Assembly: GCF_027627475.1 (NCBI RefSeq)
Contig: NZ_CP115484.1
Coordinates: forward strand, 1,177,501-1,241,500
Reading direction: 5' to 3'
Length of the DNA: 64,000 nucleotides
Source of the DNA: Paenibacillus sp. SYP-B4298
Lineage (GTDB): Bacteria > Bacillota > Bacilli > Paenibacillales > Paenibacillaceae
Within the stretch, counting starts at the first letter, position 1; every line of letters starts with the position of its first letter. The notes under the pieces were generated by a model, which saw nothing but the letters and a program-made list of their open reading frames with translations, ran no database searches and was not told the DNA's origin. Below are positions 15,344-38,640 of this stretch, one piece after another. The translations under genes were made by a program, and so were the position numbers.

Positions 15344-15567
15344 AAAATGAAAAGCCTCCTTGTTTTTCGATCCGGTGCACCTGCGGCTTGACCGGCATCG
15401 TAGTTGGACAGCTTGACAATAGGACAAGCGTCCAACTATATATATTATGTGTGTCGGGGGCTCAATCCTTTAATTTGGAAATCAAATTTGAGAAATTTTT
15501 GAAAATGATCATGATTCAATTTAATTTAACTAAATGCTGTTATTCAAATGCTCAACAATAGTCGTTG

Positions 15568-16795: not shown

Positions 16796-16848
16796 ATTTG
16801 ACGCTGTATTCGCTGAGTCTATCGCAGTCTGGAAGAGAGGTATCGTGC

Positions 16849-18639
16849 ATGAATTATCAATCTTATTTCAAAAGCATCTCCATTAAAAATAAAATCTTCG
16901 CAACCATGATTATTATTGTTTTTGTGTTAATTACAGTGATTGCTTATTTTGCTAATACTATTTCTCAGAAAGCGATTATAGATAAAGCAGTGAATAATTC
17001 GTTACGGGAGCTAGTTCTCATTAATAATAATATTGCGACTTTGGTTACTTCTGTCGAGGATTACTCCAAAATGCTGGCGACGGATTATCGTCTACAGGAG
17101 GTTCTATACAATGATATGTCAATGAAAAAGCCGGAAGGCGGGCTTGAAAGTTTAATCACGAGTAAGAAAATATCGGAGATCATCAGCAACTTCGTGGAAC
17201 CCAATACGAAGGTTAAAGCCGCCAGTGTCTTATCTTCGCGGATGCAGTGGGCTGATGTCGGTTATGCGAATAATAACTACGCAACACATATATTCGGCTC
17301 TCAACCTGTAGCTATGGAACTTGCCAATAACAATAAACCGATCTGGACAGGACTGGTTCCCTTTAAGTTTCGGTATGATTCATCAGAAAGCAATGTCTTT
17401 GCAGTGTCCAAAGCGGTTGTGCATAAAGAATTGGGAAGCACGATTGGAATGGTCGCTCTCTATGTAAAAGAATCTGTGATTGCAGCGATTTATGAAAACA
17501 GTTTAAATTATCAAGGCGGTGAGTTCTATATCCTTGATGATTCGCAACGTATTATCTCATCTCGTAATAAGTCTCTCTTACATAAAGATTTTACAGATAA
17601 GACCTCGATCTCCCTCCCCAATCTGGATGAAGGTGAAATGAGTTTTATTCTCGGCAAGGAGGAGGAGAAGCTGCTCGTATCCACGCAGCGGTTTGAACCC
17701 CTGAATTGGACCATTATAAGTGTGATTCCACTTGAAGTCATAACGATGGAGAATAAGGAAATTTATCAGCTTATTATTCGTACAGGTATGCTGTGCCTCG
17801 TGTTTGCGCTGGGGATATCTTTTTTTCTGTCCCGTTCTATAACGAAACCGTTGCTCATCCTGGCCAGCACAATGAGGAAAATAAGAAACGGGCAGATGAA
17901 TGTTCGAAGCACTTACAAATCAACGGATGAAATTGGACATTTAAGTGATGGATTCAATAGTCTCATGGATCGCATCGAAGCGCTTGTTGCCAAAAATGCA
18001 GAAGAGGAAAGGACGAAGGGAGAAATTGAATTCAAGCTGCTTCAGTCTCAAGTCAAACCACATTTTTTATATAACACGGTTGAAACCATCATCTCGTTGA
18101 TTAAGCTTAATATGAAATCGGAAGCGATTGCAGCAGCAAAGTATATGGCGAATTTTTATAATATTTCATTGAGCCGAGGAAATGATGTGATCTCCATCCG
18201 GGAAGAAATGAAATTAACGGAAAGTTATCTGGAAATCCAGCAGCTTCGATATGTGGAGTATATGGACTATAAGATGGATATAGACGAAGACATTATGCGC
18301 TACGCAACCCCCAAGCTGATGCTTCAGCCGATTGTTGAGAACGCGATTTATCATGGACTAAAGCGGAAGAAGGAGAAGGGAAGCTTGCACATCGTTGGTT
18401 ACCAACAGAAGGGCCATATCATCATTGAAGTATTGGACAACGGTGTTGGGATGGACAAGCAGCAAATTGAGCAACTGTTGGAACCTACGGTGGAGGATAA
18501 AAGAAATGTAAGCTTCGGCGCTCGAAGTGTGAACCGTCGAATTAAAATGCTGTATGGCGACCGGTTTGGATTAGAAGTAGAAAGCGTCTTTGGTTCCTAT
18601 ACAAAAGTCATCATTCATCTTCCGCTCAAAGAGCTTTAG
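16849..18639 (+). CDS. YesM-type sensor histidine kinase
   Basis: 596 residues from ATG 16849 (GGAAGAGAGG 8 bp upstream; the in-frame TTG at 16798 overlaps the cre site). It has one membrane segment near 16-38, an extracellular sensor domain to about 290, a second segment, and HAMP (320-370). LLQSQVKPHFLYNT then carries the phosphorylated H near 404, with QPIVENAIYHGL (N box) and DNGVGM (G1) in the ATPase domain. These kinases sense sugars or binding-protein complexes and phosphorylate an AraC-type partner, which is the next gene 14 bp downstream. The nearby ABC transporter and beta-helix protein are likely targets. Confidence 0.93.
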   Translation: MNYQSYFKSISIKNKIFATMIIIVFVLITVIAYFANTISQKAIIDKAVNNSLRELVLINNNIATLVTSVEDYSKMLATDYRLQEVLYNDMSMKKPEGGLESLITSKKISEIISNFVEPNTKVKAASVLSSRMQWADVGYANNNYATHIFGSQPVAMELANNNKPIWTGLVPFKFRYDSSESNVFAVSKAVVHKELGSTIGMVALYVKESVIAAIYENSLNYQGGEFYILDDSQRIISSRNKSLLHKDFTDKTSISLPNLDEGEMSFILGKEEEKLLVSTQRFEPLNWTIISVIPLEVITMENKEIYQLIIRTGMLCLVFALGISFFLSRSITKPLLILASTMRKIRNGQMNVRSTYKSTDEIGHLSDGFNSLMDRIEALVAKNAEEERTKGEIEFKLLQSQVKPHFLYNTVETIISLIKLNMKSEAIAAAKYMANFYNISLSRGNDVISIREEMKLTESYLEIQQLRYVEYMDYKMDIDEDIMRYATPKLMLQPIVENAIYHGLKRKKEKGSLHIVGYQQKGHIIIEVLDNGVGMDKQQIEQLLEPTVEDKRNVSFGARSVNRRIKMLYGDRFGLEVESVFGSYTKVIIHLPLKEL

Positions 18640-18653
18640 AAAGGGGCCGTGTC

Positions 18654-20267
18654 ATGTATAAAGTGCTAATTGTTGATGATGAATATTACTTTAGACAAGC
18701 TATAAAAGTTTCATTGCCTTGGGAGGAATTGGATCTTCAACTGATAGGGGAAGCGAAGAATGGCGAGGATGCTCTTGAACAAATGAGAATTCTGCATCCA
18801 GATATCATCATGGTAGACATCAATATGCCGATCATGGACGGCTTAACATTCATTGCGGAGGCAAGGTCAGAAGGCTTCAACGCCAAATTTATTGTTCTTA
18901 CCGGCCATAGCGAATTTGCTTATGCGAAGCATGCGATTCAACTTGGCGTGCATAATTATGTGTTGAAACCTATTGACACAGAAGAAGTTCAAAACTCGTT
19001 ATGTGAAATGAAGAAATTGATCAAGGATGAGAGAAATGCAAAACTAGAGCTCGATGACTTGAAAAAGCAGGCAGTGGAGAAAGCATCGTTGCTGAGAACC
19101 CAGGTATTAAATGATTGGCTGCTTGGAAACATAGGGTCTGAGGATAAAGAAAACCGCTTGCTGAGGATGGGAATTGACATCGACTCAACGGATTATATGA
19201 CGGCGGTGATCGATATAGGGGCGGGTGATGGACACCCGTATTCCAGTGCGCAGGATAAAACCACCATCAGGAGTAACATTCCAACCCTTGTCGAACAGGC
19301 AGTGCATCATTCATTTTCGTATGAGGGTTTCTTTAATGAAAAAGGTCAATTTGTGCTCATTTTTGGTTCGAGAGACAACAATTTTGACGAAATTGAAGCG
19401 CTTTGTGAATCTATCCTCACCAAGATGGCGGCAAGCAACGAATTTACCTATACGATTGGGCTAGGAAATGGACATATAGGTTTTGAGGCAGTGTCTGCTT
19501 CATATAAGGAAGCGCTTTATGCACTGAAGCATCGATATCTTCTTGGTGGCAATCGTGTTATTTTATATTCCAAGGTGACTCAATCCGCAATGAAAGTCAG
19601 TTTGTATTCGATTAGTAAGCGAAGCCAATTTCTAATGAGTATGAGAACAGGAAATACCTCAGAGGTAGAGGAATGGCTGACCGAATTTTTTTACAATGCC
19701 CGTTTGAACAATGCCTCGTTAGAAATGCTCCTGGTTGCTGGCTTTGAAATCTTCTCCACATGCATGGAATTTTTGGAGGAAACATCTCAAGATATACATG
19801 AGATCGTCCAGAGTCAATCTGAGCCCGATTTGTTTGGGCTCATCGAACGAATGAATTCCTTCAATGAATTTGAAGATTGGATACGTGGTCTGATCCGAAA
19901 GATTATGGTTCATGTTCATGTGAAGAAGTCCAGTCGATCTGCAATCATTGTAGAGGAAGTCAAGTCATTTATTAAGGTGAACTATGTAAATGAAGCATTG
20001 AAAATTGAAGACATTGCCAGAGGTGTTCATATGAATTACAACCATCTATGCTATGTGTTTAAGAAGGAGACCTCAACCACAATTAATGATTTTTTAACCC
20101 AAATCAGAATGCAAAAGGCGAAGGAACTCTTTGACCAGGGCTGCCTCGTCGTTCAGGACGTTGCGAGCAGGGTCGGGTATTCAGATGCGAATTATTTTGG
20201 GAAATGCTTCAAAAAGTATTCAGGAATTACGCCTAGTAAATATATAAGCAACATCAGCAATGGATAG
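18654..20267 (+). CDS. YesN-type response regulator with AraC DNA-binding domain
   Basis: 537 residues. The receiver domain (1-120) has DDE at 8-10, phosphoacceptor D54 in IIMVDINMPIMDG, and K in YVLKPID. A middle region of about 300 residues resembles the YesN linker. The C-terminal 105 residues carry two AraC helix-turn-helix motifs (IEDIARGVHMNYNHLCYVFK and VASRVGYSDANYFGKCFKKY). AAAGGGG precedes the ATG. It is co-transcribed with the kinase and probably activates the SBP/permease operon that starts at 20501. Confidence 0.93.
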   Translation: MYKVLIVDDEYYFRQAIKVSLPWEELDLQLIGEAKNGEDALEQMRILHPDIIMVDINMPIMDGLTFIAEARSEGFNAKFIVLTGHSEFAYAKHAIQLGVHNYVLKPIDTEEVQNSLCEMKKLIKDERNAKLELDDLKKQAVEKASLLRTQVLNDWLLGNIGSEDKENRLLRMGIDIDSTDYMTAVIDIGAGDGHPYSSAQDKTTIRSNIPTLVEQAVHHSFSYEGFFNEKGQFVLIFGSRDNNFDEIEALCESILTKMAASNEFTYTIGLGNGHIGFEAVSASYKEALYALKHRYLLGGNRVILYSKVTQSAMKVSLYSISKRSQFLMSMRTGNTSEVEEWLTEFFYNARLNNASLEMLLVAGFEIFSTCMEFLEETSQDIHEIVQSQSEPDLFGLIERMNSFNEFEDWIRGLIRKIMVHVHVKKSSRSAIIVEEVKSFIKVNYVNEALKIEDIARGVHMNYNHLCYVFKKETSTTINDFLTQIRMQKAKELFDQGCLVVQDVASRVGYSDANYFGKCFKKYSGITPSKYISNISNG

Positions 20268-20500: not shown

Positions 20501-21850
20501 TTGAAACCAAATACCAGAATTCTTTTACCTGCTTTGCTTGCGTGCACCGTGATGGCTGCAACAGCTTGTTCGTCTACCAACACGCCTGCGCCCTCCCCGA
20601 CGCCTTCCTCGACTACTTCAGAGCAGAGCAATGGCGGGAAAACGAAAGAGGAAAAAATCAAACTTCGTGTCATGACCATTACGACGGATGAAAACCGCAA
20701 TAACATCATGGAGAAGTTTATTAAACCCAACATTTCAAAGGAGTTTCCTAACCTGGAAGTTGAATTCGAGCCAGGCGGTGGCGGCGAGGATATGGCCAAC
20801 AAGGTTAAAACCTATAATGCCTCCGGGGATATGCCGGATGTATTCTGGAATGATGCCGGTTTCTTTACTTCTTTGAATCAAGCAGGCAATATTATGGATT
20901 TAACCCCCTATATTACAAAAGACGGTTTTTTGAACAAATACAAAGTTCCTGAGGCACTAAAGCACTTTGATGGAAAGATTTACAGCTTGTCCTCAGGGGC
21001 TGATACGTATTTCACACCGGTTATTTTCTATCACAAGGACCTCTTCGAAAAAGCGGGAGCGAAAGTACCGCAAACCTTCGATGAGCTGATTGAGGTATCC
21101 AAGAAACTAAAGGATAGTGGCGTTGTTCCGGTAGCGACTCCAGGCAAAGACGGTTGGGCACCTAAATTATTTATGCTTCAGCAAATGGTTCAAATCGGAA
21201 ACCCGCAGGCGATGAACAGCCTGGTCCTCAACAAGACGGATTTCAATGATCCATCCGTCATTGCAGGGGTAGAACGAATTGAACGATTGGCTAAGGAAGG
21301 TGTCTTTGCAGAAGGTATCGCCAATCTGGATTATGGTCCGGCGATGGAAATGTTTACCTCGAAGCGGTCAGCCATGCTGTGGATGTTCACTTGGGAATTG
21401 CCGAATCTGGCGAAAATCGATAGCGTCGATTTCTTCCCATTCCCAAGCGCAGGCCCTGATTATGATCAGAACAAAGTCGTCCAATTCTGGGGTTCCCCAT
21501 TGAATGGATATGCCGTTAGCGCAAAAACAGCACATCCTGATGAGGCTGTGAAATTGGCAGAGTTCCTGGCTATGCAGGATGCTTTGTACTTTGAATCTGT
21601 CGGTTCTGCGATCGCGTTGGAGACAGGCAATCCTGCATCGGATCTGGAACCGTTAATGGAGAAGTTTTTGACTTGGTACAATGGCGCTGAAGTGATGATT
21701 CCTTCATTAGCGCTGAACTCAGTAGATGCACGGATGTCTTCAGAGCTGTCGACACAGGGTGCCAGACTTTTGACGGGCGAATATTCGGCAGCCGATTTTA
21801 TTAAAGTCATCAGCAAGGAGTGGCAAGATAATACGTGGTTCAATAATTAA
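20501..21850 (+). CDS. Sugar ABC transporter substrate-binding lipoprotein
   Basis: 449 residues. The TTG start is fixed by AGGAGGT 8 bp upstream. The signal peptide ends in a lipobox-like AATAC, so C23 should be lipidated. A Ser/Thr/Pro tether follows, then a family-1-type extracellular binding protein fold (GDMPDVFWND, IYSLSSGADTYFTPVIFYHK, AMLWMFTWELP). The two permease genes follow. No ATPase gene is in the operon, as is usual for such systems served by a shared MsmX-type ATPase. The substrate is probably an oligosaccharide made by the secreted beta-helix protein downstream; this is inferred from position. Confidence 0.92.
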   Translation: MKPNTRILLPALLACTVMAATACSSTNTPAPSPTPSSTTSEQSNGGKTKEEKIKLRVMTITTDENRNNIMEKFIKPNISKEFPNLEVEFEPGGGGEDMANKVKTYNASGDMPDVFWNDAGFFTSLNQAGNIMDLTPYITKDGFLNKYKVPEALKHFDGKIYSLSSGADTYFTPVIFYHKDLFEKAGAKVPQTFDELIEVSKKLKDSGVVPVATPGKDGWAPKLFMLQQMVQIGNPQAMNSLVLNKTDFNDPSVIAGVERIERLAKEGVFAEGIANLDYGPAMEMFTSKRSAMLWMFTWELPNLAKIDSVDFFPFPSAGPDYDQNKVVQFWGSPLNGYAVSAKTAHPDEAVKLAEFLAMQDALYFESVGSAIALETGNPASDLEPLMEKFLTWYNGAEVMIPSLALNSVDARMSSELSTQGARLLTGEYSAADFIKVISKEWQDNTWFNN

Positions 21851-21879
21851 TGGCTCAACATGGAATAGAGAAAAGGCAC

Positions 21880-21903
21880 CCCGCTGGACTCCAGTCTGGC
21901 GGG
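21880..21903 (+). terminator. Intercistronic hairpin after the binding-protein gene
   Basis: CCCGC-TGGACT pairs with AGTCTG-GCGGG in the 91-bp gap between the binding-protein and permease genes. No T-run follows. Such stem-loops commonly stabilise the binding-protein mRNA and lower permease expression. Confidence 0.55.
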
Positions 21904-21941
21904 TTCATGCCTGCGATATAACTATGGACGGTGGAGAGTGA

Positions 21942-22829
21942 ATGATGAACAAGTATTTTAGCACGAAGATGTCGATAACAGTTTTTGCTGCTCCCGCTTT
22001 AGTGCTTTTTACCCTTTTCTGTGTCTATCCCTTGCTGCCTCAATTATGGATGAGCTTTCATAATCATAACGGTTTTAAGAATTTGGGATTCGTTGGACTG
22101 GATAATTACTGGAGTGTCATCCAGCAATCCTCATTCTGGGTCGCTCACAAGAATACGTATTTAGTTGTTGGTATGTCAATTTTGATCGGTTTGCCGCTTT
22201 CCATGATATTGGCACTTTTTATTGATGCCCAGACACCGAAGCTGCGGAGGTTTTTCAAGACAGCTGCAATGTTCCCCGCGATCCTGTCCGTCATCGTCAT
22301 TTCCCAGATCTGGGTGGCCTTCTACGAACCAAGCTGGGGCTTGTTCAACACGATTTTAAGATCTGTGGGACTGGACAGTCTGACCCGTTCCTGGCTCACC
22401 AACTCGAACACGGTCATGGTCAGTATCGGCTTGACATTCCTTTGGCAATATATCGGCTTGAACGCGATCTTATTATATACGGGGATCAAAACCATTCCCA
22501 AAAATTATTATGAGGCTGCCTTGATTGATGGCGCTAATTTCTTTCAAGTCAGCACGCGCATTACGATTCCATTGCTGCAAGATGTGATTAAATATGTTCT
22601 CATCCTCTCGACTTTAGGCTCTATGGCTTTCTACGCTCATGTCCGAGTCATGACAGCCGGCGGCCCGGGCGATTTATCAAGAACCGTGATCTATCAAATG
22701 TACTACACGGCCTTCGATACCTCTCAATTTGGTAAGGGAACAGCCATTGCCGTCATTTTTGTCCTGCAATGTCTCCTGATTTCCTTCCTTATTCAGCGCT
22801 TCGTCGCCAGAGAAAAAGTAGAGTTTTAG
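21942..22829 (+). CDS. Sugar ABC transporter permease, MalF/UgpA type
   Basis: 295 residues with six predicted membrane segments. The EAA loop reads YEAALIDGANFFQVSTRITI, which contacts the ATPase. The N-terminus has the usual PALVLFTLFCVYPLLPQLWMS. GTGGAGAGTGA precedes two adjacent ATG codons (21942, 21945). Its stop overlaps the ribosome site of the next permease, so the two are translated together. Confidence 0.94.
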   Translation: MMNKYFSTKMSITVFAAPALVLFTLFCVYPLLPQLWMSFHNHNGFKNLGFVGLDNYWSVIQQSSFWVAHKNTYLVVGMSILIGLPLSMILALFIDAQTPKLRRFFKTAAMFPAILSVIVISQIWVAFYEPSWGLFNTILRSVGLDSLTRSWLTNSNTVMVSIGLTFLWQYIGLNAILLYTGIKTIPKNYYEAALIDGANFFQVSTRITIPLLQDVIKYVLILSTLGSMAFYAHVRVMTAGGPGDLSRTVIYQMYYTAFDTSQFGKGTAIAVIFVLQCLLISFLIQRFVAREKVEF

Positions 22830-22842
22830 GAGGCATGGGACA

Positions 22843-23655
22843 TTGAAGTATTTATTTCGCGTCTTTTGGATTGTTATCGGTTGCTCCTTTCTGTTCCCGT
22901 TGTACTGGATGATCACAACGTCGTTGAAGTCCAGGTCGGAAGCTTATGAGAATCAGTTCGGCTTGCCACAGTCCTGGGAATGGCAGAACTACAGCGATGT
23001 TTTATCAAAATATGATTTTCTGCTGTACTTTAAGAACAGCTTCATTTATACGGGCGGAACCATCGTGATTACGCTGTTGGCGGGGACGATGCTCGCTTAT
23101 TGCTTGAGCCGTATGGTGTGGAAGTGGAATGGCATGGCTCTATTCTATATCTCTCTAGGACTGATTGTTCCGATTGAGGTCGTTGTCATTCCGTTGTTTC
23201 AGTTGGTTAAATCGTTGAACATCAATGACACGTATTTTGCTCTTATCTTGCCTTATACCGGCTTCTCTCTGGCGGCCTGTGTACTTATGCTCTATGCCTT
23301 CCTTCGTTCCCTGCCCAAGGAGCTGGAAGAGGCGGCCTGTATCGATGGTACTAATGTGTACCAAGCGTTCTTTCGAATTATCCTGCCGATTGTCATGCCG
23401 GCGCTCATGACGCAGACCGTCCTGATCTTCATGCGGGTATGGAACGAATTCCCGTTAGCCTTCATTCTTGGAGCAAGGGATCAATTTCGACCACTCACAG
23501 TAGGCTTGCACAGCTTTTTTGTCAGTGTTGGCGTGTCCCACTGGGGTCTGATCGGAGCAGCGATGCTGATGACAAGCTTGCCTACGATGATCATCTATAT
23601 GATCGGCAATGAGAAGATCGAGAATGCCTTAACCGCTGGTGCAATCCTAAAATAA
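22843..23655 (+). CDS. Sugar ABC transporter permease, MalG/UgpE type
   Basis: 270 residues, six membrane segments. The TTG start at 22843 lies 9 bp after AGGAGG (22828-22833), which overlaps the previous stop. The EAA loop reads EEAACIDGTNVYQAFFRIIL. It completes the heterodimeric channel with the upstream permease. Confidence 0.94.
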   Translation: MKYLFRVFWIVIGCSFLFPLYWMITTSLKSRSEAYENQFGLPQSWEWQNYSDVLSKYDFLLYFKNSFIYTGGTIVITLLAGTMLAYCLSRMVWKWNGMALFYISLGLIVPIEVVVIPLFQLVKSLNINDTYFALILPYTGFSLAACVLMLYAFLRSLPKELEEAACIDGTNVYQAFFRIILPIVMPALMTQTVLIFMRVWNEFPLAFILGARDQFRPLTVGLHSFFVSVGVSHWGLIGAAMLMTSLPTMIIYMIGNEKIENALTAGAILK

Positions 23656-23806: not shown

Positions 23807-26800
23807 GTGAGAAAAAAGGCATTCATTTGGATAATGACTTTGAGCATGATAGTTTCTATGCTACCCTTTTCATCATCGGCTGTTACGGCTGACAGCGTGA
23901 CAAGTGTGACAAGTAAAACGATCTATGTTGCTACAAATGGCAATGATAACACAGGTGACGGAACACAAGACAAGCCGTACAAAACGGTTGCCAAGGCGAA
24001 AGAAGTCGTAAAGACGCTGCCTAAGACCGGCGGTGATATCGTCGTTCAAATTGCGGATGGATTTTATTCGCTGGATGAAACGCTGGTTTTTAACAAGGAT
24101 GACTCCGGAAGTGCAAGCAGCACGGTTCGCTATGAGGCGGCACCAGGTGCAAAGCCTGTCATTAGCGCTGGTGAAATGCTGGAAAAAGGGGTATGGACAG
24201 AAGCGGTTGGTCTGACCCAGACGGGTGGCTTAAAGGCCTATAAAACGACCCTTAAACGGAACGATAAGCTGCGCGCCATCTATGTAAATGATAAAATCGC
24301 CAACATGACGCTGAGCTCGCCGATCGTTTCGGCCAACAGAACAGTCAACGGCACCCCCACAGTCAGCTTTACCGCTGCCGATAACGATTGGGCGTGGCGG
24401 GACGGCAACAATATCCGGGCGGGGATCGTATTCGATGCCAGCGTAGGTCTGAAGACGGGAACGAAAAATCCTCAAAACATCGAAGCCGAAAGCGTAGGCG
24501 GCTCCACTGCCAGATGGGCCAGGCCTTTTGTCACCTTCGCGTCGATCGAACCAGCGCCGGCTGCCAGCAACAAGCCTGATGGCGTCATGCTTCGGTTCCA
24601 GATGCCGTATGGAGCGATTTCACAGTCTCTGAGCAATAACACGCAATACAATCCAGGTAACAATCAAGTCATTCGTAATGCTTTCGAGTTCTTCAACAAA
24701 CGCGGAGATTTCTATTTTGACCAGGCGGAGAGCACGCTGTATTACATCCCGCTTGAAGGCGAGGATATTAATAAAGCCGACGTGGTCATTCCAAAGCTGG
24801 AGACGGTTCTGGACATCAGAGGCATTCCTGTAGGCGATCGGTTGAATCCTATTGCAGGCTCGGATGATGGACGTGTCAAACACATCACGTTCAAGGGGCT
24901 GAAGTTTGCTCATACCGACTACAAACTGTTTGAACTGACGGGAACCTATACACTTAGCGACGGTTCTGGCAAAGTAACGACTACCTCCCGCGGCTACGCG
25001 TCCGTTCAGGGCTCGATCGTGAACACGGTTTACTTTCCTAGCAGCATCAATTGGCATGAGACGTTCTACCGCGGGTATGACATCCCTCCGGCTGCGATCA
25101 TGATCAACGCAGCGAGGAATATCAAAGTGCTGAATGGCGAGATCATGCTGACCGGATTTAATGGCATCCATGTGGAGAACGATGTCAAGGATATCGAGGT
25201 CACAGGCAACTATATCGCAGATACGCTTGCTTCAGGCATTGTCATCGGACATCCGCACCATATCTATGAAAACGATGTGCCGATTAAGCATGAATCCAGC
25301 GTTCAGGTCTCTGGCACGCCAATCAGAAGCTGGGCTGGAGTGGATAAGGAAAAGTTCAAGGCGGGTACGGAAGCCGTGCCGGAGAATATTTATATCACGA
25401 ATAACTTTTTCTTCAGAAACTGCTACGGATTCCCGGGGGCCAATACATTAGCCTCTTTCTACACAACGAATATGCAGGTTCTGCACAATTACTTTTATGA
25501 CTCTACTTACGGCGCCTTGAGCATCGGCTGGGGCTGGGACGAGTACGATGGATTCGGCTTTACCGCCCAAGGCACCAACAAGACGGGCGGCCCTTACCAT
25601 GGTACGCATGAAACGAGTGTTGCGAGGTCTCCAGAGATCAGTACGACTTCCAGGAATAACAAAATCAACTATAACCGGGTAGAGGAAATTTGTACGATCG
25701 TTAACGACTCCGGAGCCATTTACTCTCTGGGACGGCAGGGAGATCCGGGTACGTTGCCGGGTGGAGGGACATGGGACACCGTCAGCACGTTGACCAACAA
25801 CCCTGTCACCGACAAGACTAGCAACTGGCATTCTGATAACTGGACGAATTACACCGAGATGAACTACAACTTCCTTGACCCGAATCCAACTGGAAAACCG
25901 ACGACCTCCAACAACTGGACGAACGGGTTCCATCCCGACGAAGGCAGTACGTTCATTAAGATGATCGGCAACGTTGTACAGTCCAAGCTCTCCCACGCCC
26001 CTGGACAGAGCCGACTGTTCGAATTCAACAACTGGAAGCGCAAAAGCGACATGATTGCCATCGAAGGTTATGTGGACGGAGATAACAACCAGAATGGCGG
26101 CCCTAGGATTACTTATGACAACTACAAAAGCGAAGCACGCATCTGGCCGGTTAAGGGCAACGAGATCGTTTTGAATTCGGGTCTTACCGACGAATACACG
26201 CATATGATCCCAAGGAGTCTCATTGCCGATACCGAATTTGAGCTGGCTTCCAACGTTATCGTGGGTGTAGGCGGTGAAAAGGTGAGCCGCAGAGGTCTGC
26301 TCAAAGCGGAAGACACCGTCTGGCTTGCGCCCGCGAACACGACTGTCTTTGAAGAAGGCCCTACGATGACAAAAGCAGCCGGCAACGCGAAGAGCATCAA
26401 CACGCCAGCTGCCGCGGGACAATACAAATTGTATATCGTCTATGGAGACGGCAGAGCAACCGCCACTTCCAAGTATACGGCTTATGTCGATGCGAGCGAG
26501 TCCACAGCCAATGTGGAAAATGGGAAAAGCTACGAGGTTTCAGCAGTACGGCCGCTGAAACTGACTTTGAGTAATGACTACATCTTTACGCTTAACGGCA
26601 CGCCTGTGGCGGATGGGCACGAAATCAATACCGCAGGAAGCTGGACCTTGGTAGGCAGCACTTCGACGCCTGCAATAACCATCCAATTCAGCACTACAGT
26701 ATCGGTGGCAAACAAGCTGCTCACGTCTGATGTGACAGTAGTTCCTGGCGGGACAGTCAGGTTCAAGCATGATTTGGACGACGCAACCCAAAAAATATGG

Positions 26801-28924
26801 ATTTCCTCGTCGAGCGGCGGACATTTTGATGGCGGCGACGATGAAACGGTAGCTTCTGGAGACGCGCTCGGGATGAAAGCACCTATGTTGCCTGGACCAT
26901 ACATTATTTATGTACTGGCGGCAGACGGCGAAGTACTCAGTCAATCGGACGCTCGTGTTATCGTGAGCGAGACGGCGTCTGTCGACACAGCGGCTGACAA
27001 AGCCCTGTTGAGCGTCTTGATCGAAGGCGCTACAGACAAGGACTCCAAGCTTTATACAAGATCAACATGGAAAGCATTTGAACGCGCATTAAGTGATGCC
27101 AAAACGGCTGCCTCTAATGCTGAGATCGGGCAGACAGCAGCAGACAATGCCTATTACGCGCTGCGTAACGCGATCAAAGAGCTTCAACTCGTTGGAAAAC
27201 AGCTCGTGGAAGTGTTCAAGGAAGATTTCGAATCAGGAACGTTGGACTCCGGAAAATGGAAAGGTCAAAACAATCAGGTTTCCGTAACCGATTCTAAAGT
27301 AATGCAGTTTGGTCCAACAGCAAACAGCAATGTTAGAGCCCAGACAGTCGAAGAATTTGGCGATATGGAAATGACCTTTGATTTCAACGTGAACTCGGGA
27401 ACAGGCGATCAAGGATTCTATATCTACTTCAGAACAACGGATCGTACCGTTCCTGCTAATCTGTCCAATCGCAATGGATTCGAACTGGCAATCGGGCCTG
27501 GATTCAACCCTAATCTGAGAATTTTTGAGCATGTAAACAACAACGCTACCTACCAATTGTCAGGCGGCAGCACGGCTATCCAGCGAGATAGCTGGTACAA
27601 AGCCAAGATCGTTATTGAGGAAGGCATGTTGTATACGAAGTTTTGGCCAAGAGACAGTGAAGAACCGACACAATGGACTATGTCCGGTGCCATAAGCAAC
27701 GGCGCTAAAGAAAGAGGAAAAGGACATGTCAGCTTCGAGTTTTACGGAAATCAGCGCTCAGGCATGATTGATAATGTTGTCATTAAAGAATTCCGTGAGC
27801 CTGTATTGACTGAAGAGTATGCAGAAATTAACGGTCCATCTGCGGTTATCGCCGGACATCCGGTTCAACTGTCCATTGGTATCGATAATCTGGTCAAGGG
27901 GATCGACGCATTCTCGGTCGAAGTGAATTATGATCCAGCGAAATTCGCGTTCGAAACCCTAACTGATGCAGACGGAGTGGTCAGTCTGGCCGACAGTGCA
28001 ATAACGAATGTGCATCCTGATTTGAATATTCTTGCTACAGCAGTCAAGCAACAAACAGGAAAGATCCTCATTATTGCTTCAACGAAAGGTAGCCTGTACC
28101 AAAATAGTGGTGAGCTGTTTGTGCTGAATGGCAGAGCTGCAAGTAGTGCATCTGCGGGCGGTACGAGCGTGTCCCTCTCTGACTTCGTTGTGACAGCACA
28201 AGCCGATGCTCGTAACATCAGCACGGAGGAAGCAGTTCTGGACATCCAAGTGAGAATAACGGATAACTCGGCGCTTGCAGCAGTTATTGAACAAGCTGAA
28301 GAATTGCTGAGCAGATCGAAAGAAGGTTCACAACCTGGGCAATATCCGGTTGGCTCCAAAGCCGTATTGCAAGGTGCGGTTCAATCTGCGATTCTTGTCC
28401 GGGATAACAATGCTGCAACGGAAAGTGACATCGCGCAAGCGATCACAGCGCTCAAGCAAGCCATCTCTGTGTTCAGAAACAGTGTGATGTCTTATCCTGA
28501 TGTAAGTAAAACAGAATTGACCAAAGCAATTGAAGCTGCGAAATTGAGGCTGGATACAGCAGAGAAGGGTAACAAAATTGGTCAATATACCTCCGCTGCG
28601 ATACGTGCGCTGGATGAAGCAATCCAGCAGGCAGTGGCAGTGAAGAATGATGGTTTAGCTTCACAGTCTACAGTTAACCAAGCCGTTACTGCTCTTCATG
28701 AAGCGGTAGGTGTCTTCGCTACTCGAATCGTTACATTTGTACCTGGTCAAACCGCAGTAACCATTCTTGACCTGTCGTACTTGGCGAAATACTACGGTAC
28801 GAAATCAAGCGATTCGGATTGGATCAAGGTTGAACCGGCCAACCTCTTTGATAGCGGAGAAATTACCATTCGTGAATTGTCAGCCGTTGCCAGAATGATT
28901 GTTGAAAACTGGTTGTCGGAGTAA
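23807..28924 (+). CDS. Giant secreted beta-helix protein (GH141-like) with cohesin, FIVAR and dockerin-like domains
   Basis: 1705 residues; GTG start after GGGGAGG. A signal peptide (about 1-29) is followed by a right-handed beta-helix (35-840) opening with IYVATNGNDNTGDGTQDKPY and later DSGSASSTVRYEAAPGAKPV, a pattern resembling GH141 and pectate-lyase-fold enzymes. Then come Ig-like parts (850-1060), a FIVAR-like helical domain (1063-1135), a LamG-like jelly roll (1139-1330), a cohesin domain (1340-1485), two FIVAR repeats (1487-1640), and a C-terminal dockerin-like segment (1643-1705: DLSYLAKYYG, then ELSAVARMIV). The first dockerin calcium loop lacks its Asp residues. Catalytic residues and substrate were not identified. 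The next gene encodes a cohesin-SLH protein. Confidence 0.82.
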   Translation: MRKKAFIWIMTLSMIVSMLPFSSSAVTADSVTSVTSKTIYVATNGNDNTGDGTQDKPYKTVAKAKEVVKTLPKTGGDIVVQIADGFYSLDETLVFNKDDSGSASSTVRYEAAPGAKPVISAGEMLEKGVWTEAVGLTQTGGLKAYKTTLKRNDKLRAIYVNDKIANMTLSSPIVSANRTVNGTPTVSFTAADNDWAWRDGNNIRAGIVFDASVGLKTGTKNPQNIEAESVGGSTARWARPFVTFASIEPAPAASNKPDGVMLRFQMPYGAISQSLSNNTQYNPGNNQVIRNAFEFFNKRGDFYFDQAESTLYYIPLEGEDINKADVVIPKLETVLDIRGIPVGDRLNPIAGSDDGRVKHITFKGLKFAHTDYKLFELTGTYTLSDGSGKVTTTSRGYASVQGSIVNTVYFPSSINWHETFYRGYDIPPAAIMINAARNIKVLNGEIMLTGFNGIHVENDVKDIEVTGNYIADTLASGIVIGHPHHIYENDVPIKHESSVQVSGTPIRSWAGVDKEKFKAGTEAVPENIYITNNFFFRNCYGFPGANTLASFYTTNMQVLHNYFYDSTYGALSIGWGWDEYDGFGFTAQGTNKTGGPYHGTHETSVARSPEISTTSRNNKINYNRVEEICTIVNDSGAIYSLGRQGDPGTLPGGGTWDTVSTLTNNPVTDKTSNWHSDNWTNYTEMNYNFLDPNPTGKPTTSNNWTNGFHPDEGSTFIKMIGNVVQSKLSHAPGQSRLFEFNNWKRKSDMIAIEGYVDGDNNQNGGPRITYDNYKSEARIWPVKGNEIVLNSGLTDEYTHMIPRSLIADTEFELASNVIVGVGGEKVSRRGLLKAEDTVWLAPANTTVFEEGPTMTKAAGNAKSINTPAAAGQYKLYIVYGDGRATATSKYTAYVDASESTANVENGKSYEVSAVRPLKLTLSNDYIFTLNGTPVADGHEINTAGSWTLVGSTSTPAITIQFSTTVSVANKLLTSDVTVVPGGTVRFKHDLDDATQKIWISSSSGGHFDGGDDETVASGDALGMKAPMLPGPYIIYVLAADGEVLSQSDARVIVSETASVDTAADKALLSVLIEGATDKDSKLYTRSTWKAFERALSDAKTAASNAEIGQTAADNAYYALRNAIKELQLVGKQLVEVFKEDFESGTLDSGKWKGQNNQVSVTDSKVMQFGPTANSNVRAQTVEEFGDMEMTFDFNVNSGTGDQGFYIYFRTTDRTVPANLSNRNGFELAIGPGFNPNLRIFEHVNNNATYQLSGGSTAIQRDSWYKAKIVIEEGMLYTKFWPRDSEEPTQWTMSGAISNGAKERGKGHVSFEFYGNQRSGMIDNVVIKEFREPVLTEEYAEINGPSAVIAGHPVQLSIGIDNLVKGIDAFSVEVNYDPAKFAFETLTDADGVVSLADSAITNVHPDLNILATAVKQQTGKILIIASTKGSLYQNSGELFVLNGRAASSASAGGTSVSLSDFVVTAQADARNISTEEAVLDIQVRITDNSALAAVIEQAEELLSRSKEGSQPGQYPVGSKAVLQGAVQSAILVRDNNAATESDIAQAITALKQAISVFRNSVMSYPDVSKTELTKAIEAAKLRLDTAEKGNKIGQYTSAAIRALDEAIQQAVAVKNDGLASQSTVNQAVTALHEAVGVFATRIVTFVPGQTAVTILDLSYLAKYYGTKSSDSDWIKVEPANLFDSGEITIRELSAVARMIVENWLSE

Positions 28925-28935
28925 TCTTAACCACT

Positions 28936-28966
28936 CGGAGGCCGGCATGATGCCGACCTCCGTTTT
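28936..28966 (+). terminator. Terminator after the beta-helix gene
   Basis: CGGAGG-CGGCAT pairs with ATGCCG-CCTCCG around one mismatch and is followed by TTTT. It lies 12 bp past the stop and 74 bp before the cohesin-SLH start. Confidence 0.85.
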
Positions 28967-29039
28967 CAAAATCATTAGGTTTCTCAAGGAACGAGGCATC
29001 CCTGCTCCTCTAAACTCACAGAAAAGGATGAATCCTGCT

Positions 29040-30068
29040 ATGAGACGTAAAGTCCTATTCCTATGTCTATCTCTGATGCTATCGTTATCTTTCATTTCAC
29101 ATACCGCGCTTGCTAAGGATGTTTTCTTTTCCTTGACTGTAGACAATGAACGCCCTGCAGTCGGACAGAAAATCCAGGTTATCGTGACTGGAGACAACTT
29201 GACCGATATGTATGGCTATGAAATAAACCTGACTTTTGATACACGTCTCTTGCGTTATGTTAAAGCAGAAAGTTCGTTGTCGGGCTTCTCCGTGCCGATG
29301 GCGCCAAAGGGCGGAAAACTTGTATTTGCCCATACGAAGGTTAGCAAAGTGGCCGGTGAAAACGGAAAGGCAGTTCTGGCTACGATTACGTTTGAGGTTA
29401 TAGGGGCAAGCAATGAGCCAACCGCAATCGGTCTTACCGGGGTGGAGCTTGTGAAGAGCGATTTGACCACTACGAATCATGTAACGAACGTAAAGCTGAA
29501 CGTGATACCGACCGGTAATCCACTGGTGATTTTTAGTGATCTTGCCGACCACTGGGCAAAACAGGAGATCGAGAGGGCTGCCGGACTCGGTTTCGTTAAC
29601 GGTTATCCCGACGGCACCTTCCGCCCGCAGAACCAAGTAACGCGAGCGGAGTTTATCGTGATGATCGCCCGGGCAATGGAGCTTACGTCCAAAGGCGGCG
29701 CAGCGTTCGAATTCACCGATCAGGAGGCGATTCTGGACTGGGCTAGGCCGTTTATCGCTGAAGCTCAATTAGCCGGCGTTATTAGTGGTTACGAGGATGG
29801 AAGCTTGCGCCCGAACAGTCTGATTAACCGTAGTGAAATGGCTGGCATGGTTATGCGGGCATTAGATATTGCGCCTGACCAAGGATTGAAGCCGACATTC
29901 GCCGATACCGACAGCATTGCAGCTTGGGCTCAGCCCTACGTTGCGGCGGCTGCTGAAGCGGGCCTGATCAACGGTAGAGGCAATAACCGGTTTGTGCCTG
30001 CGGCTAACGCAACACGTGCGGAGGCGGTAGTCTTAATTCTGAGAATGCTTGACCTTGATCCGGTCTAA
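29040..30068 (+). CDS. Cell-surface anchor protein: cohesin domain plus three SLH domains
   Basis: 342 residues from ATG 29040 (AAAGGA 11 bp upstream; the open frame extends left through the terminator, so a longer start is unlikely). Signal peptide 1-25 (ending ALA-K). Residues 28-155 are a cohesin: FSLTVDNERPAVGQKIQVIV, then YGYEINLTFDTRLLRYV and GENGKAVLATITFEVIG. Residues 160-342 are three SLH domains (FSDLADHWAKQEIERAAGLG, GYPDGTFRPQNQVTRAEF and similar). The layout is that of a monovalent anchoring scaffoldin: the SLH part binds wall polymer and the cohesin may hold a dockerin partner. The preceding gene supplies a dockerin-like tail. Binding is inferred, not shown. Confidence 0.88.
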   Translation: MRRKVLFLCLSLMLSLSFISHTALAKDVFFSLTVDNERPAVGQKIQVIVTGDNLTDMYGYEINLTFDTRLLRYVKAESSLSGFSVPMAPKGGKLVFAHTKVSKVAGENGKAVLATITFEVIGASNEPTAIGLTGVELVKSDLTTTNHVTNVKLNVIPTGNPLVIFSDLADHWAKQEIERAAGLGFVNGYPDGTFRPQNQVTRAEFIVMIARAMELTSKGGAAFEFTDQEAILDWARPFIAEAQLAGVISGYEDGSLRPNSLINRSEMAGMVMRALDIAPDQGLKPTFADTDSIAAWAQPYVAAAAEAGLINGRGNNRFVPAANATRAEAVVLILRMLDLDPV

Positions 30069-33079: not shown

Positions 33080-35044
33080 TTACGGTTCGATGCCCCATTG
33101 CAGTACGCCGTTGATATAGGCAGTGACTTTGTTCCAATCGACATACGTTGTATCCGTTGCGTCGAAGGAGTAGTCATTGGTCTGGGTATACGAGCTCCAG
33201 TCGTTTTTGGATATACGCAGTTGAATTTCAATAGATTGACCAGCGCCAAGCGAGCCGGCTCCGCTTGTAAATGCGAGCTCTGAATAATAATCTGCGCCCG
33301 TTTGTGCAGTCGGGAGCTTCGTGAAGGTGTTCGTAATGTTAGCGCAGCCTGCACTGGACCAGTCGCAGAAGAAGCTTTGCGGAAGCTCGCCGTCAATGGT
33401 GTAGTAGTATCTCGTTTTGATGCTGGACAAAGGAATAGCAGTAGTGCCCGTGTTGACGATTTTGATGCGCGGATTGAGCGTGCTTGTTACGGCTGTCGTA
33501 TTGCCATTGAACATCTGTACTTTGATCGTACCGCTACCGGATGAAGTCGAATCTATAACCGAAATCGCAAGCGTGGCAGCGCTTCCAGCACTGAAGTTGA
33601 ACGTAAGCGTCGTCGTGCCAACGGGCCGCGCAGCCAGATAGGCTTTTTTGATGGTTAATGTGGAGCCCGCGACGGTATAATCGGTGCCGGGAACAAGTGT
33701 AGCCGTTCCATTTTTGATGCTGGATAACGTATTGCCGTTCAAGGTCATCGTAACTTGAATGTCGGCCTGATTCGCCGTTTTCTTATCAAATGCAGACGTC
33801 GTTGGGGTAAGGGTGGAGTTGTTCGTTGTCGAGCCGCCCATGCCGCTCATAATCGCATTAATAATGCCTTGCTGGGTGATCGTATTCGTGTACCTGTCGA
33901 ACAATCCGAAGCCGAACTGTCCGTTATAGCCGTTATCCCAATACACCGGCACAGAGCCATATTTCTTGGACGTTGCAGTTAATGCCTTGGCATAGATTGC
34001 GCGATACGTATTATTCGTTGCATCGAAGTTGCTTTTATCAATGGAGCCAAATTCGCCGATCACAGCAGGATACCCTTGCACGACGAATTTATCGTAGACG
34101 GACTTCAATTGCGATTCCATGTAATCCTCTTGGCCCCAGGTTGATTTTTTGGAGGGGTTGGTGGCAGTTGCGCCCCATTGCGTAATCGTGCCAGATTCCT
34201 CGCCGGCGTAGTCCCAGGGAGAATAATAATGGACGGAGATCATAATTCTTTTCTCAGAGCTCGGAATCGTAGACGAACGGTATGAATCCGTTGGCATGAC
34301 GAATCCATAATTGCCGACCGTATAATCAATGGTCGTATTCCAGCCGGGAACGAGGAGCCATCTCGCGCTGTTATTGCTGCCGGTCTGTCTCACCGTATCC
34401 ACGAAAATCTGGTTATAGGCATTCAGGTTAGAATAATAAGACAGGTTGGGCGAATTGTAATTGCCGTCGAACACCTCGTTCATGGATTCAAAGATCAAGC
34501 GCTCATCATAATTGGCAAATGTATTGGCGATTTGCTCCCACACCTTTTGATATTTGGCCCGAATGGTGGCTTGATTGCTTGAATTGACGAGCAGCCAGGC
34601 GCCATTGACGGAATTAAAGCCGTCTCCATGAATGTTGATAATGACATACAAGCCTTCGTTGTGGGCATAGTCGACAACCGTTTTTATTCTGTTCAACCAG
34701 GCAGCGTTGATGGTGTAATTGGGTGCGCTTCCAATTAGATTCAGATACGATACCGGGATACGAATGGTTTTGAAGCCGGCTGCCTTGACCGCTTGGATGA
34801 GTGCTGGCGTAATCGTCGGGTTATTCCATGCGGTTTCACTGGGAATGCCATTGACGCTGGCTTCGAGCTGGTTGCCGAGATTCCAGCCTGCACCCATCTC
34901 GGCTACGATCTGGGAAGCGTTCAACTGTCTGAAATCGGCTGTCGGCGCGGCCGACGCTGTCGAACTCCAGCCGGAAGCGGCTGCTGAAATGGCTAGAACT
35001 GCAGCTAACATATACAATTGGATTACTTTCACTTTTGACCTCAT
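33080..35044 (-). CDS. Secreted GH5 endoglucanase with CBM_X2 and CBM3 domains
   Basis: 654 residues from ATG 35044, set by GAGGAGG 8 bp upstream. Signal peptide about 1-32 (ending ASA-A). The GH5 barrel occupies about 38-395: GAGWNLGNQLE, IRIPVSYLN, INIHGDGFN, FESMNEVFDG (acid/base E near 188), HYYSPWDYAG, and VIGEFGSID (nucleophile E near 330). A CBM_X2 Ig-like module follows (about 405-490, LTPTTSAFDKK), then a CBM3 cellulose-binding module (about 505-654, KVQMFNGNTTAVTSTLNPRI). It should cleave cellulose or mixed-linkage glucan outside the cell. The gene is monocistronic, with its own promoter and terminator. Confidence 0.95.
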   Translation of the reverse strand: MRSKVKVIQLYMLAAVLAISAAASGWSSTASAAPTADFRQLNASQIVAEMGAGWNLGNQLEASVNGIPSETAWNNPTITPALIQAVKAAGFKTIRIPVSYLNLIGSAPNYTINAAWLNRIKTVVDYAHNEGLYVIINIHGDGFNSVNGAWLLVNSSNQATIRAKYQKVWEQIANTFANYDERLIFESMNEVFDGNYNSPNLSYYSNLNAYNQIFVDTVRQTGSNNSARWLLVPGWNTTIDYTVGNYGFVMPTDSYRSSTIPSSEKRIMISVHYYSPWDYAGEESGTITQWGATATNPSKKSTWGQEDYMESQLKSVYDKFVVQGYPAVIGEFGSIDKSNFDATNNTYRAIYAKALTATSKKYGSVPVYWDNGYNGQFGFGLFDRYTNTITQQGIINAIMSGMGGSTTNNSTLTPTTSAFDKKTANQADIQVTMTLNGNTLSSIKNGTATLVPGTDYTVAGSTLTIKKAYLAARPVGTTTLTFNFSAGSAATLAISVIDSTSSGSGTIKVQMFNGNTTAVTSTLNPRIKIVNTGTTAIPLSSIKTRYYYTIDGELPQSFFCDWSSAGCANITNTFTKLPTAQTGADYYSELAFTSGAGSLGAGQSIEIQLRISKNDWSSYTQTNDYSFDATDTTYVDWNKVTAYINGVLQWGIEP

Positions 35045-35163
35045 CGGATATACCTCCTCATTTTCTACAACTGAGCACAACGAATACCGGAAACGATGCT
35101 CCAACTCCTTTCTATTTGTTTGAATTTTTCTGCATGAAGTAGGAGAGCTATAATGTATCTTAA

Positions 35164-37755: not shown

Positions 37756-38640
37756 CTATTCAACGGACTTCAACGATCTGACTTCAGACTCAGATAACCC
37801 ACTTGCCTTAACGATAACCTCGATCTCCACGCCCATGGCAAGCAGGCTCCTCGCCATCTCAATGGCCTTGTTTCGCTCCCCCTTGGCTAAGCCTTCGGAT
37901 AGCCCTCTCTCCAACCCTTTCTTCATCCCACGTTCTGTTGCCCATTCAATCATGGAGGCTTCGTCATGCAAATATTTTTGCCGCTCTTCATACAGACGGC
38001 GGGCTTCCTGATCCTGACTTAAAAACTCCAGCGTATCCATTGCTTTCTTTAATGTAGGTTCGTTCATTTGAAGCACCTCCCAATTTGACTTGTCGGCTCC
38101 TTTCAAGAACATTAACCAGTTGATCAACCCGCCTTCCATCGGCAGTGCATGATTATCCAGCTTGGTTAACTCCAAGAAATGGATTTCAATATCGTCGCTC
38201 AATTCGATTCCCGTATGGTCTTCCCTCAGATGAAACACATTATGATAACGGTCGTTCGTAATAAAAGAATAGTTCAGAATATTGATTGTGACGCACTTTT
38301 TCAATTGCTTGTAGGTTTGGCCTTCCTGCAATTGACTGGAATAACGTTTGCTCCAGTAATACAGCGTGCGCTTTTCGATGTCATATTTGTTGAAAAGCTG
38401 CATTTCGATATTGATAAGCTGTCCTTCAATGGTCTTGGCCCATATATCGAATATGGATTGTTTGTCGAGCGGAGCGTCTTTGTCTGTGTACGGGTTTAAC
38501 AGGACGATTTCTGTCAGAGGCGGTTCCCCTGATTCCGCAAACGTGCGATTAAGGAAGGCTAGCAAGACATCCTTGTTGTCTTCACTGCCAAAAATACGTT
38601 TGAAGACAAAATCGTTTCGCGGATTAAGTAATTCAGTCAT
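37756..38640 (-). CDS. Rpn family recombination-promoting nuclease / PD-(D/E)XK transposase-like protein (paralogue 2)
   Basis: 294 residues, closely similar to the gene at 10715-11563 along the whole N-terminal domain. Shared blocks include NDFVFKRIFGSED, PPLTEIVLLNPYTDKDAP, IFDIWAKTIEGQLINIEMQL (catalytic D and E-x-Q) and YYWSKRYSSQLQEGQTYKQL. It differs in its C-terminal tail, a Gly/Glu/Lys repeat region (KGLERGLSEGLAKGERNK). GGAG lies 11 bp before the ATG, and an extended -10 (TGATATAAT) is upstream near 38665. Probably a nuclease promoting recombination; no associated system is visible. Divergent from the HNH gene. Confidence 0.87.
   Translation of the reverse strand: MTELLNPRNDFVFKRIFGSEDNKDVLLAFLNRTFAESGEPPLTEIVLLNPYTDKDAPLDKQSIFDIWAKTIEGQLINIEMQLFNKYDIEKRTLYYWSKRYSSQLQEGQTYKQLKKCVTINILNYSFITNDRYHNVFHLREDHTGIELSDDIEIHFLELTKLDNHALPMEGGLINWLMFLKGADKSNWEVLQMNEPTLKKAMDTLEFLSQDQEARRLYEERQKYLHDEASMIEWATERGMKKGLERGLSEGLAKGERNKAIEMARSLLAMGVEIEVIVKASGLSESEVRSLKSVE

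Follow-up and report, generated by a model that had tools for sequence, protein, structure and literature searches.

The window analysed here comprises 64,000 nucleotides of Paenibacillus sp. SYP-B4298 (bases 1177501-1241500 of a single 6.26-Mb contig) and carries two neighbouring genes, termed A and B. Gene A encodes a secreted protein with a putative carbohydrate-active beta-helix region and a C-terminal tail composed of a cohesin, two FIVAR modules and a dockerin-like module; gene B encodes a secreted protein with one cohesin and three SLH domains. The results suggest, with a probability of about 70%, that A docks on B-type anchors at the cell surface and that the two proteins are a dedicated enzyme-anchor pair. 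The surface-docking logic put forward in the original prediction for this locus is supported by the conserved gene pair, by two natural fusions and by genomes whose only detected dockerins are of the A type.

The prediction had described A as a secreted 1705-residue protein with an internal cohesin and a dockerin-like tail, and B as a 342-residue protein of one cohesin and three SLH domains. Pfam matches confirmed both descriptions (Table 1), complemented for A by the tail profile and the model alignment described below. Both proteins exceeded the curated cut-off of Pfam Cohesin (PF00963; 24.1 bits), and the model of the A cohesin had its best match in the Clostridium perfringens cohesin 2vo8 (Z 17.3, 132 residues, 2.2 A). 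In the beta-helix region, residues 30-172 of A matched the parallel beta-helix protein 9rx2 (phmmer, E 6e-12) and only residues 284-579 matched the GH141 enzyme BT_1002 (5mqp; phmmer, E 2.3e-9). Pfam GH141_M reached an E-value of 0.036, below its cut-off, and DUF1565 was found at residues 44-90; a carbohydrate substrate of A is putative. This region is 83-89% identical across five orthologues and is separated from the cohesin by a middle part. Pfam FIVAR matched two stretches with 22.9 bits in the whole protein (cut-off 29.2) and 35.3 bits in the tail alone. A FIVAR module immediately N-terminal to the dockerin of a putative carbohydrate-active enzyme is the arrangement seen in C. perfringens.

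The start of A looks like a signal peptide. The open frame of B spans 28899-30068 (+) and would give 389 aa if counted from a TTG; a signal peptide, judged by eye, begins at ATG 29040, resulting in 342 aa. With this start an overlap of A and B is unnecessary and the intergenic gap measures 115 bp. At least one cohesin, SLH domains and a signal peptide (by eye) are the features of an SLH-anchoring scaffoldin, and B has all of them.

Sequence profiles and structure models indicate that the A tail is a divergent dockerin. Pfam Dockerin_1 (PF00404) gave no match to A at E<=1. At E<=0.01 it recognized 7 of the 54 homologous tails, the best with 3.3e-4, and missed the other 47; this alignment omits locus L094, the tail of which is truncated by a contig end. 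A hidden Markov model (HMM) built from the dockerins of this genome scored 17 bits for the A tail and 26-29 bits for three orthologues. A profile of the tails matched the solved C. perfringens FIVAR-dockerin structures 2jnk/2ozn with an E-value of 6e-16, and the alignment crosses from FIVAR into the first dockerin helix. In the model of the whole tail (mean predicted local distance difference test score, pLDDT, 86), residues 234-367 aligned with 2ozn_B (Z 14.8, 120 residues, 27% identity). The root-mean-square deviation of 9.9 A indicates that both domains match and that the angle between them differs. In the Foldseek ranking of the tail model 2ozn_B was twelfth, after cohesins and antibody domains. 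The helices at 320-328, 339-345 and 355-371 were modelled with a pLDDT of 86-91 in the full tail and with low confidence in the isolated piece.

A canonical dockerin carries D/N ligands at positions 1, 3, 5 and 12 of each of its two calcium loops, and C. perfringens dockerins bind calcium. We fetched 55 A-type dockerin tails from 33 genomes of 8 GTDB genera, and they do not fit the canonical scheme. In loop 1, all 55 tails have L, F or M at position 1 and Q, A, E or T at position 5, never D or N at either; P predominates at position 3, with D in one tail and E in eight, and position 12 is D in 53. In loop 2, D occupies position 1 in 52 tails, most have F or L at position 3 (two have D), the residue at position 5 varies, and D is absent from position 12 (E in 13). 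By contrast, 37 canonical dockerins from the same loci have D/N at the ligand positions nearly throughout. Eight columns are invariant in all 55 A-type dockerins, including a tryptophan near the C-terminus; in 5 of the 37 canonical dockerins a tryptophan lies one column off this position. A decay of the tail confined to this genome was rejected, as the loop-1 change is common to all fetched tails.

The A-type dockerin module is under purifying selection. The A dockerin is 80-86% identical to those of orthologues L059, L063, L071 and L087, with nonsynonymous divergence (dN) of 0.08-0.10 and synonymous divergence (dS) of 0.6-1.3, and 72% identical to that of a fifth orthologue, L088. The second FIVAR module is 55-68% identical between A and its orthologues, so the dockerin is well above it and similar to the catalytic part. 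The tail is borne by varied enzymes: in a scan of 20 A-type proteins, the 25 matched families listed, out of 64, included GH3, GH53, rhamnosidase and polysaccharide lyase 8 in one protein each, alginate lyase in two and F5/8-type domains in nine. Tentatively, Paenibacillaceae may have evolved a second, calcium-independent dockerin class on polysaccharide-active enzymes with a Cohesin-FIVAR-FIVAR-dockerin tail, usually with a cohesin-SLH gene of their own, giving modular, scaffoldin-free surface chains from private anchors. Across the phylum the full-length tail was detected in 1 of 398 genomes, the present one, in a draw with few visible Paenibacillaceae that is weak on frequency; seven other genomes matched the FIVAR part, one of them extending slightly into the cohesin end.

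The A-B pair is kept at orthologous loci, which argues for a pairing beyond chance. Six of the seven genomes in the GTDB genus carry Pfam cohesins, and the neighbourhoods of these matches (one 109-aa fragment omitted) served as genus loci; profile A8, with 29 anchor cohesins as query, indicates at least one further small anchor outside this set (G002:C1:692594, near a dockerin match at 693147). Scored with our own HMMs, 24 of 25 proteins with cohesin and SLH were located within 400 bp of a dockerin gene or fused to one, and the 17 proteins under 450 aa were all beside or fused to a dockerin gene. A further 39 anchors were hand-picked from the upper matches of the anchor-cohesin search, with their dockerins unexamined beforehand and leaving out anchors already fetched or known beside an A-type tail. 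A same-strand dockerin gene was present within 400 bp of 28 of them (24 upstream, 3 downstream, 1 both), compared to approx. 0.02 expected by chance when only Pfam dockerins are counted. A chance neighbourhood of dockerin and anchor genes was therefore rejected. Of the 55 A-type genes, 37 are directly followed by a gene for an anchor-type cohesin, with the SLH part out of frame or missing in three (L084, L123, L124), and 8 are directly preceded by one.

Moreover, two natural enzyme-Coh-Doc-Coh-SLH fusions, joining cohesin (Coh) and dockerin (Doc) modules in one chain, are found in two genera. L083 (3020 aa) comes from the genus loci, and L187 (1613 aa) is a fortieth anchor (G151) chosen for its 1627-aa frame. 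Both fusions have a damaged first calcium loop and an intact second one; two cases are no more than a hint that docking is less needed when the parts are covalently linked.

Searches of approx. 290 Paenibacillaceae genomes scored part of the candidates per genome, so that per-genome numbers are lower bounds. A tail profile (A1) tallied 140 of 290 genomes and A8 122 of 290, both including partial matches and not complete systems. Among the matches listed, 37 genomes have A-type tails, namely the 33 fetched and G060, G083, G134 and G141, recognized by two-piece profile matches; shorter two-piece matches in G022, G094, G110 and G118 were excluded. Six of the 37 (G010, G028, G060, G141, G174 and G190) have no Pfam dockerin and one to four anchor-cohesin matches each. 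Unless the calcium-poor dockerin serves the anchor in these genomes, no partner of the anchor was detected; a dockerin missed by both models because of its divergence may be present. In G010, a single contig, the set found consists of two A-type genes flanking one anchor gene (L096). Pfam detects one dockerin and two cohesins in each of two assemblies less than 90% complete (G021, G034); in both, the dockerin gene adjoins the anchor.

A tree of 92 cohesins from 46 pairs was calculated, omitting anchors of at least 720 aa, anchors without in-frame SLH and upstream anchors. Internal and anchor cohesins separated with a support of 0.99, and the internal cohesins of A-type (0.97) and canonical (0.67) proteins each formed one clade. 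The anchor cohesins were weakly nearest to C. perfringens NagJ and to cohesins of adaptor scaffoldins, among them 3l8q (E 1.1e-6). In a mirror-tree comparison of 33 A-type pairs, dockerin and anchor-cohesin distances correlated with r 0.61, and SLH contributed nothing to the dockerin once the anchor cohesin was held (0.05).

Several observations weigh against a dedicated pair. Some anchors and enzymes stand apart. L067 (1232 aa) is the exception among the 25 genus proteins, and L020, a 1250-aa SLH protein of this genome with a weak cohesin and no dockerin neighbour, was not counted among the 25 since its cohesin escaped the HMM. Eleven of the 39 sampled anchors have no dockerin gene within 400 bp (five of these have a same-strand Coh-Doc gene 682-744 bp away), and 10 of the 55 A-type genes have no adjoining anchor-type cohesin gene within this distance. 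The isolated model of second FIVAR and dockerin has a pLDDT of 48-81 across the dockerin and aligns to 2ozn_B via FIVAR only (Z 14.2, 77 residues). In the tree, anchors of A-type and canonical pairs are mostly, not cleanly, apart; the B cohesin groups with the anchors of two canonical pairs (L054, L073), and one dockerin type may therefore not be bound to one anchor type. With SLH and FIVAR distances held, the dockerin-anchor correlation fell to a partial r of 0.23 (p 0.002); holding the internal cohesin as well reduced it to 0.09 (p 0.10). The FIVARs, used as control domains, retained a partial r of 0.26-0.34 with the anchor, indicating that linkage explains much of the signal. The partial correlation was 0.15 (p 0.07) in 20 non-redundant pairs and 0.19 (p 0.16, SLH held) in 13 canonical pairs. 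As proof of partner choice the mirror-tree comparison was rejected, being weak and confounded by linkage.

The strongest correlation was found between internal and anchor cohesins (r 0.80; 0.43 with dockerin, SLH and FIVARs held). It would be expected if one dockerin fits both, with the A tail chiefly linking A to A, or A to other Coh-Doc enzymes, through internal cohesins and B being the last link at the wall. This is compatible with docking of A on B and fits the observation that a cohesin is also present in 37 of the 43 dockerin proteins from the genus loci; the part of a study on Paenibacillus guangzhouensis covered here reports the same (PMC11557425). However, linkage accounts for part of the correlation, and the clean separation of internal and anchor cohesins speaks for two specificities, yet A has a single dockerin. 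We consider such a primarily chain-forming tail possible, if somewhat doubtful. A 549-aa protein next to an anchor at L080 (4461-6110) was read as Coh-Doc-Coh-Doc, a possible chain extender.

Alternatively, the dockerin of A might fold back on the protein's own cohesin across the two FIVAR modules, forming a closed and possibly regulated tail, while B anchors dockerin proteins of the calcium type. The dockerin pLDDT rises from 48-81 alone to 86-91 with the cohesin in the same chain, distances of dockerin and internal cohesin correlate (r 0.64; 0.35 with FIVARs held), and the anchors beside the canonical dockerins at L054 and L073 are close kin of B. We regard this explanation as unlikely: it would leave the anchors of the six genomes without Pfam dockerin with no detected partner, and 8 of 13 canonical pairs have just 17-20 residues between cohesin and dockerin, which makes folding back hard in them. 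That the tail is a decayed, partnerless dockerin kept as a structural cap, with A and B in an old neighbourhood, would agree with the replacement of five of eight canonical ligand positions in most A-type dockerins (a sixth being variable) and with the absence of a Pfam dockerin match in A, but is very improbable given the uniform loop-1 change with eight invariant columns, a dN well below dS and a pairing maintained across 8 genera.

Docking of A on B would work as follows. SLH domains hold to the cell-wall polymer; B, once secreted, would be held there through its SLH domains. The secreted A would bind the cohesin of B, and probably those of sister anchors, with its calcium-poor C-terminal dockerin, and its beta-helix domain would be displayed on the surface next to the importer encoded just upstream. 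The cohesin of A, which belongs to a class other than that of B, would be free for a further dockerin protein, either a second A or another Coh-Doc enzyme, and short enzyme chains may grow from one anchor. The chain through A's own cohesin that had been predicted stands as a possibility.

Two expectations about the surroundings of the pair were not supported. The idea of a minimal complex reduced to one or two parts does not agree with the inventory of this genome, which has 10 Pfam cohesin matches and, besides B, two small anchors. The suggested search for other dockerin-tailed proteins was productive, revealing 6 Pfam dockerin matches in five genes other than A. The wider group, thought mostly to lack such modules, has them in a majority of genomes: a cohesin match was found in 190 of 295 Paenibacillaceae and a dockerin match in 160 of 290. 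By Pfam, no primary scaffoldin with several cohesins and a carbohydrate-binding module (CBM) was detected in this genome; the maximum is two cohesins, in a 963-aa SLH protein without CBM match.

In type II anchoring of cellulosomes a scaffoldin dockerin binds cohesin-SLH proteins such as SdbA. The A-B pair shares this logic of a dockerin meeting a cohesin-SLH protein at the wall. In contrast to cellulosomes, the locus has no multi-cohesin primary scaffoldin with CBM; the enzyme itself bears the dockerin and has a private anchor gene.

A system of the same kind as A-B is described, in the part of the publication covered, for P. guangzhouensis (PMC11557425), which has five SLH-anchoring scaffoldins and 35 cohesin proteins, of which 28 combine one dockerin with one cohesin. 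Many of the single Doc-Coh adaptors bear an N-terminal glycoside hydrolase (GH) enzyme, nearly all dockerins are in cohesin-bearing proteins, and an enzyme-rich surface unlike conventional cellulosomes is proposed. The same part, with counts made by InterProScan, reports neither the gene pairing nor a calcium-poor dockerin class.

The solved structures of C. perfringens are near relatives of both ends of the A tail. In its X82 cohesin/FIVAR-dockerin complexes (2ozn, 2jnk), cohesins and dockerins are on glycoside hydrolases themselves and FIVAR precedes the dockerin as in A, according to the part of PMC12997984 covered, which also mentions one GH31 bearing both cohesin and dockerin. A cohesin-SLH anchor is not described there, 'SLH' being absent from the main text. 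Unlike these proteins, A combines cohesin, two FIVARs and dockerin in one tail.

Literature searches for calcium-independent dockerins, which yielded a single unrelated review, and for such modules in Paenibacillus and Cohnella returned no account of the pairing or of the calcium-poor class, a weak negative as subscription journals were thinly covered. To the surface Coh-Doc/SLH system, which is known, the present analysis adds the order of the paired genes and how widely it occurs, together with the fusions and the calcium-poor dockerins. Pairs of the A-B type offer a simple account, testable in laboratory strains, of how large extracellular enzymes of soil Paenibacillaceae may be retained on the cell when a classical scaffoldin is absent. 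Cohesin-dockerin pairs belong to the strong couplings between proteins that serve as tools, and coupling by a conserved dockerin that lacks most of its calcium ligands would be chemically new. A possible case of scaffoldin-free surface holding is the multienzyme complex of Paenibacillus curdlanolyticus B-6, the S1 protein of which has no cohesin and dockerin modules as described in the part of PMC6823336 covered.

The window genes upstream of A and B have the same direction, in the order sensor kinase, AraC-type regulator, binding protein, two permeases, A and B. The features are listed in Table 1.

Table 1. Features of the A-B locus; positions refer to the window.
Feature	Position	Strand	Basis or remark
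Two-component system (sensor kinase and AraC-type response regulator), upstream of A	16798..20267	+	
ABC importer (extracellular binding protein and two permeases), upstream of A	20501..23655	+	
Gene A, secreted beta-helix protein, GH141-like, with C-terminal Cohesin-FIVAR-FIVAR-dockerin tail	23807..28924	+	GTG start, 1705 aa
A, beta-helix / GH141-like region, residues ~30-1060	23894..26986	+	phmmer matches to 9rx2 and 5mqp
A, internal cohesin, residues 1341-1473	27827..28225	+	Pfam Cohesin E 9.8e-7, 29.5 bits
A, first FIVAR-type helical module, residues 1490-1559	28274..28483	+	DUF4972 match; helices in model
A, second FIVAR module, residues 1568-1633	28508..28705	+	Pfam FIVAR; structural match 2ozn_B
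A, dockerin-like module, most calcium-ligand residues missing, residues 1641-1705	28727..28921	+	
Intergenic A-B hairpin with TTTTC after it, resembling a terminator or attenuator	28936..28962	+	
Gene B, secreted anchor with a single cohesin and three SLH domains	29040..30068	+	342 aa from ATG 29040 (probable start)
B, cohesin	29133..29444	+	Pfam Cohesin E 8.7e-10, residues 79-182 of 389-aa frame, 39.4 bits
B, three SLH domains	29511..30065	+	Pfam SLH E 9.1e-43, three stretches; own HMM 205-389

The intergenic hairpin may determine how much enzyme is made relative to anchor. In orthologues L059, L063, L071 and L087 and in the pair L054, the enzyme gene is likewise followed by a similar hairpin, GC-rich and with a short run of T. 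The shuffle z-score of the whole 119-nt A-B gap was just -1.3, and the hairpin was absent from the output of the terminator scan. A dispersed repeat was rejected, as the genome has one exact site and two others at two mismatches.

Other cohesin and dockerin genes of this genome show related arrangements. At L019 (3533-8788) the gene of a Coh-SLH anchor comes first, then that of a 308-aa adaptor-like protein with two dockerins and a weak cohesin-like part, then a GH9-CBM3 gene. At L017 (2473-8614) a protein with a different-looking dockerin adjoins a two-cohesin SLH protein, and L057 and L082 have a similar order. Among 22 loci from a scan of named genomes, L147, from a Thermoanaerobacterium metagenome bin that may be misplaced, has a canonical Coh-Doc gene followed by a Coh-SLH gene. 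Within the window, a GH5 cellulase with CBM_X2 and CBM3 and no dockerin match is encoded 3 kb from B (33080-35104, -). A 1231-aa SLH protein (11732-15427, -) with CBM9-like, fn3, esterase Ig-like and prolyl-oligopeptidase-type stretches is perhaps a directly anchored enzyme without cohesin. A transposase-type gene of the PD-(D/E)XK nuclease family (PDDEXK_2) lies at 37756-38640 (-).

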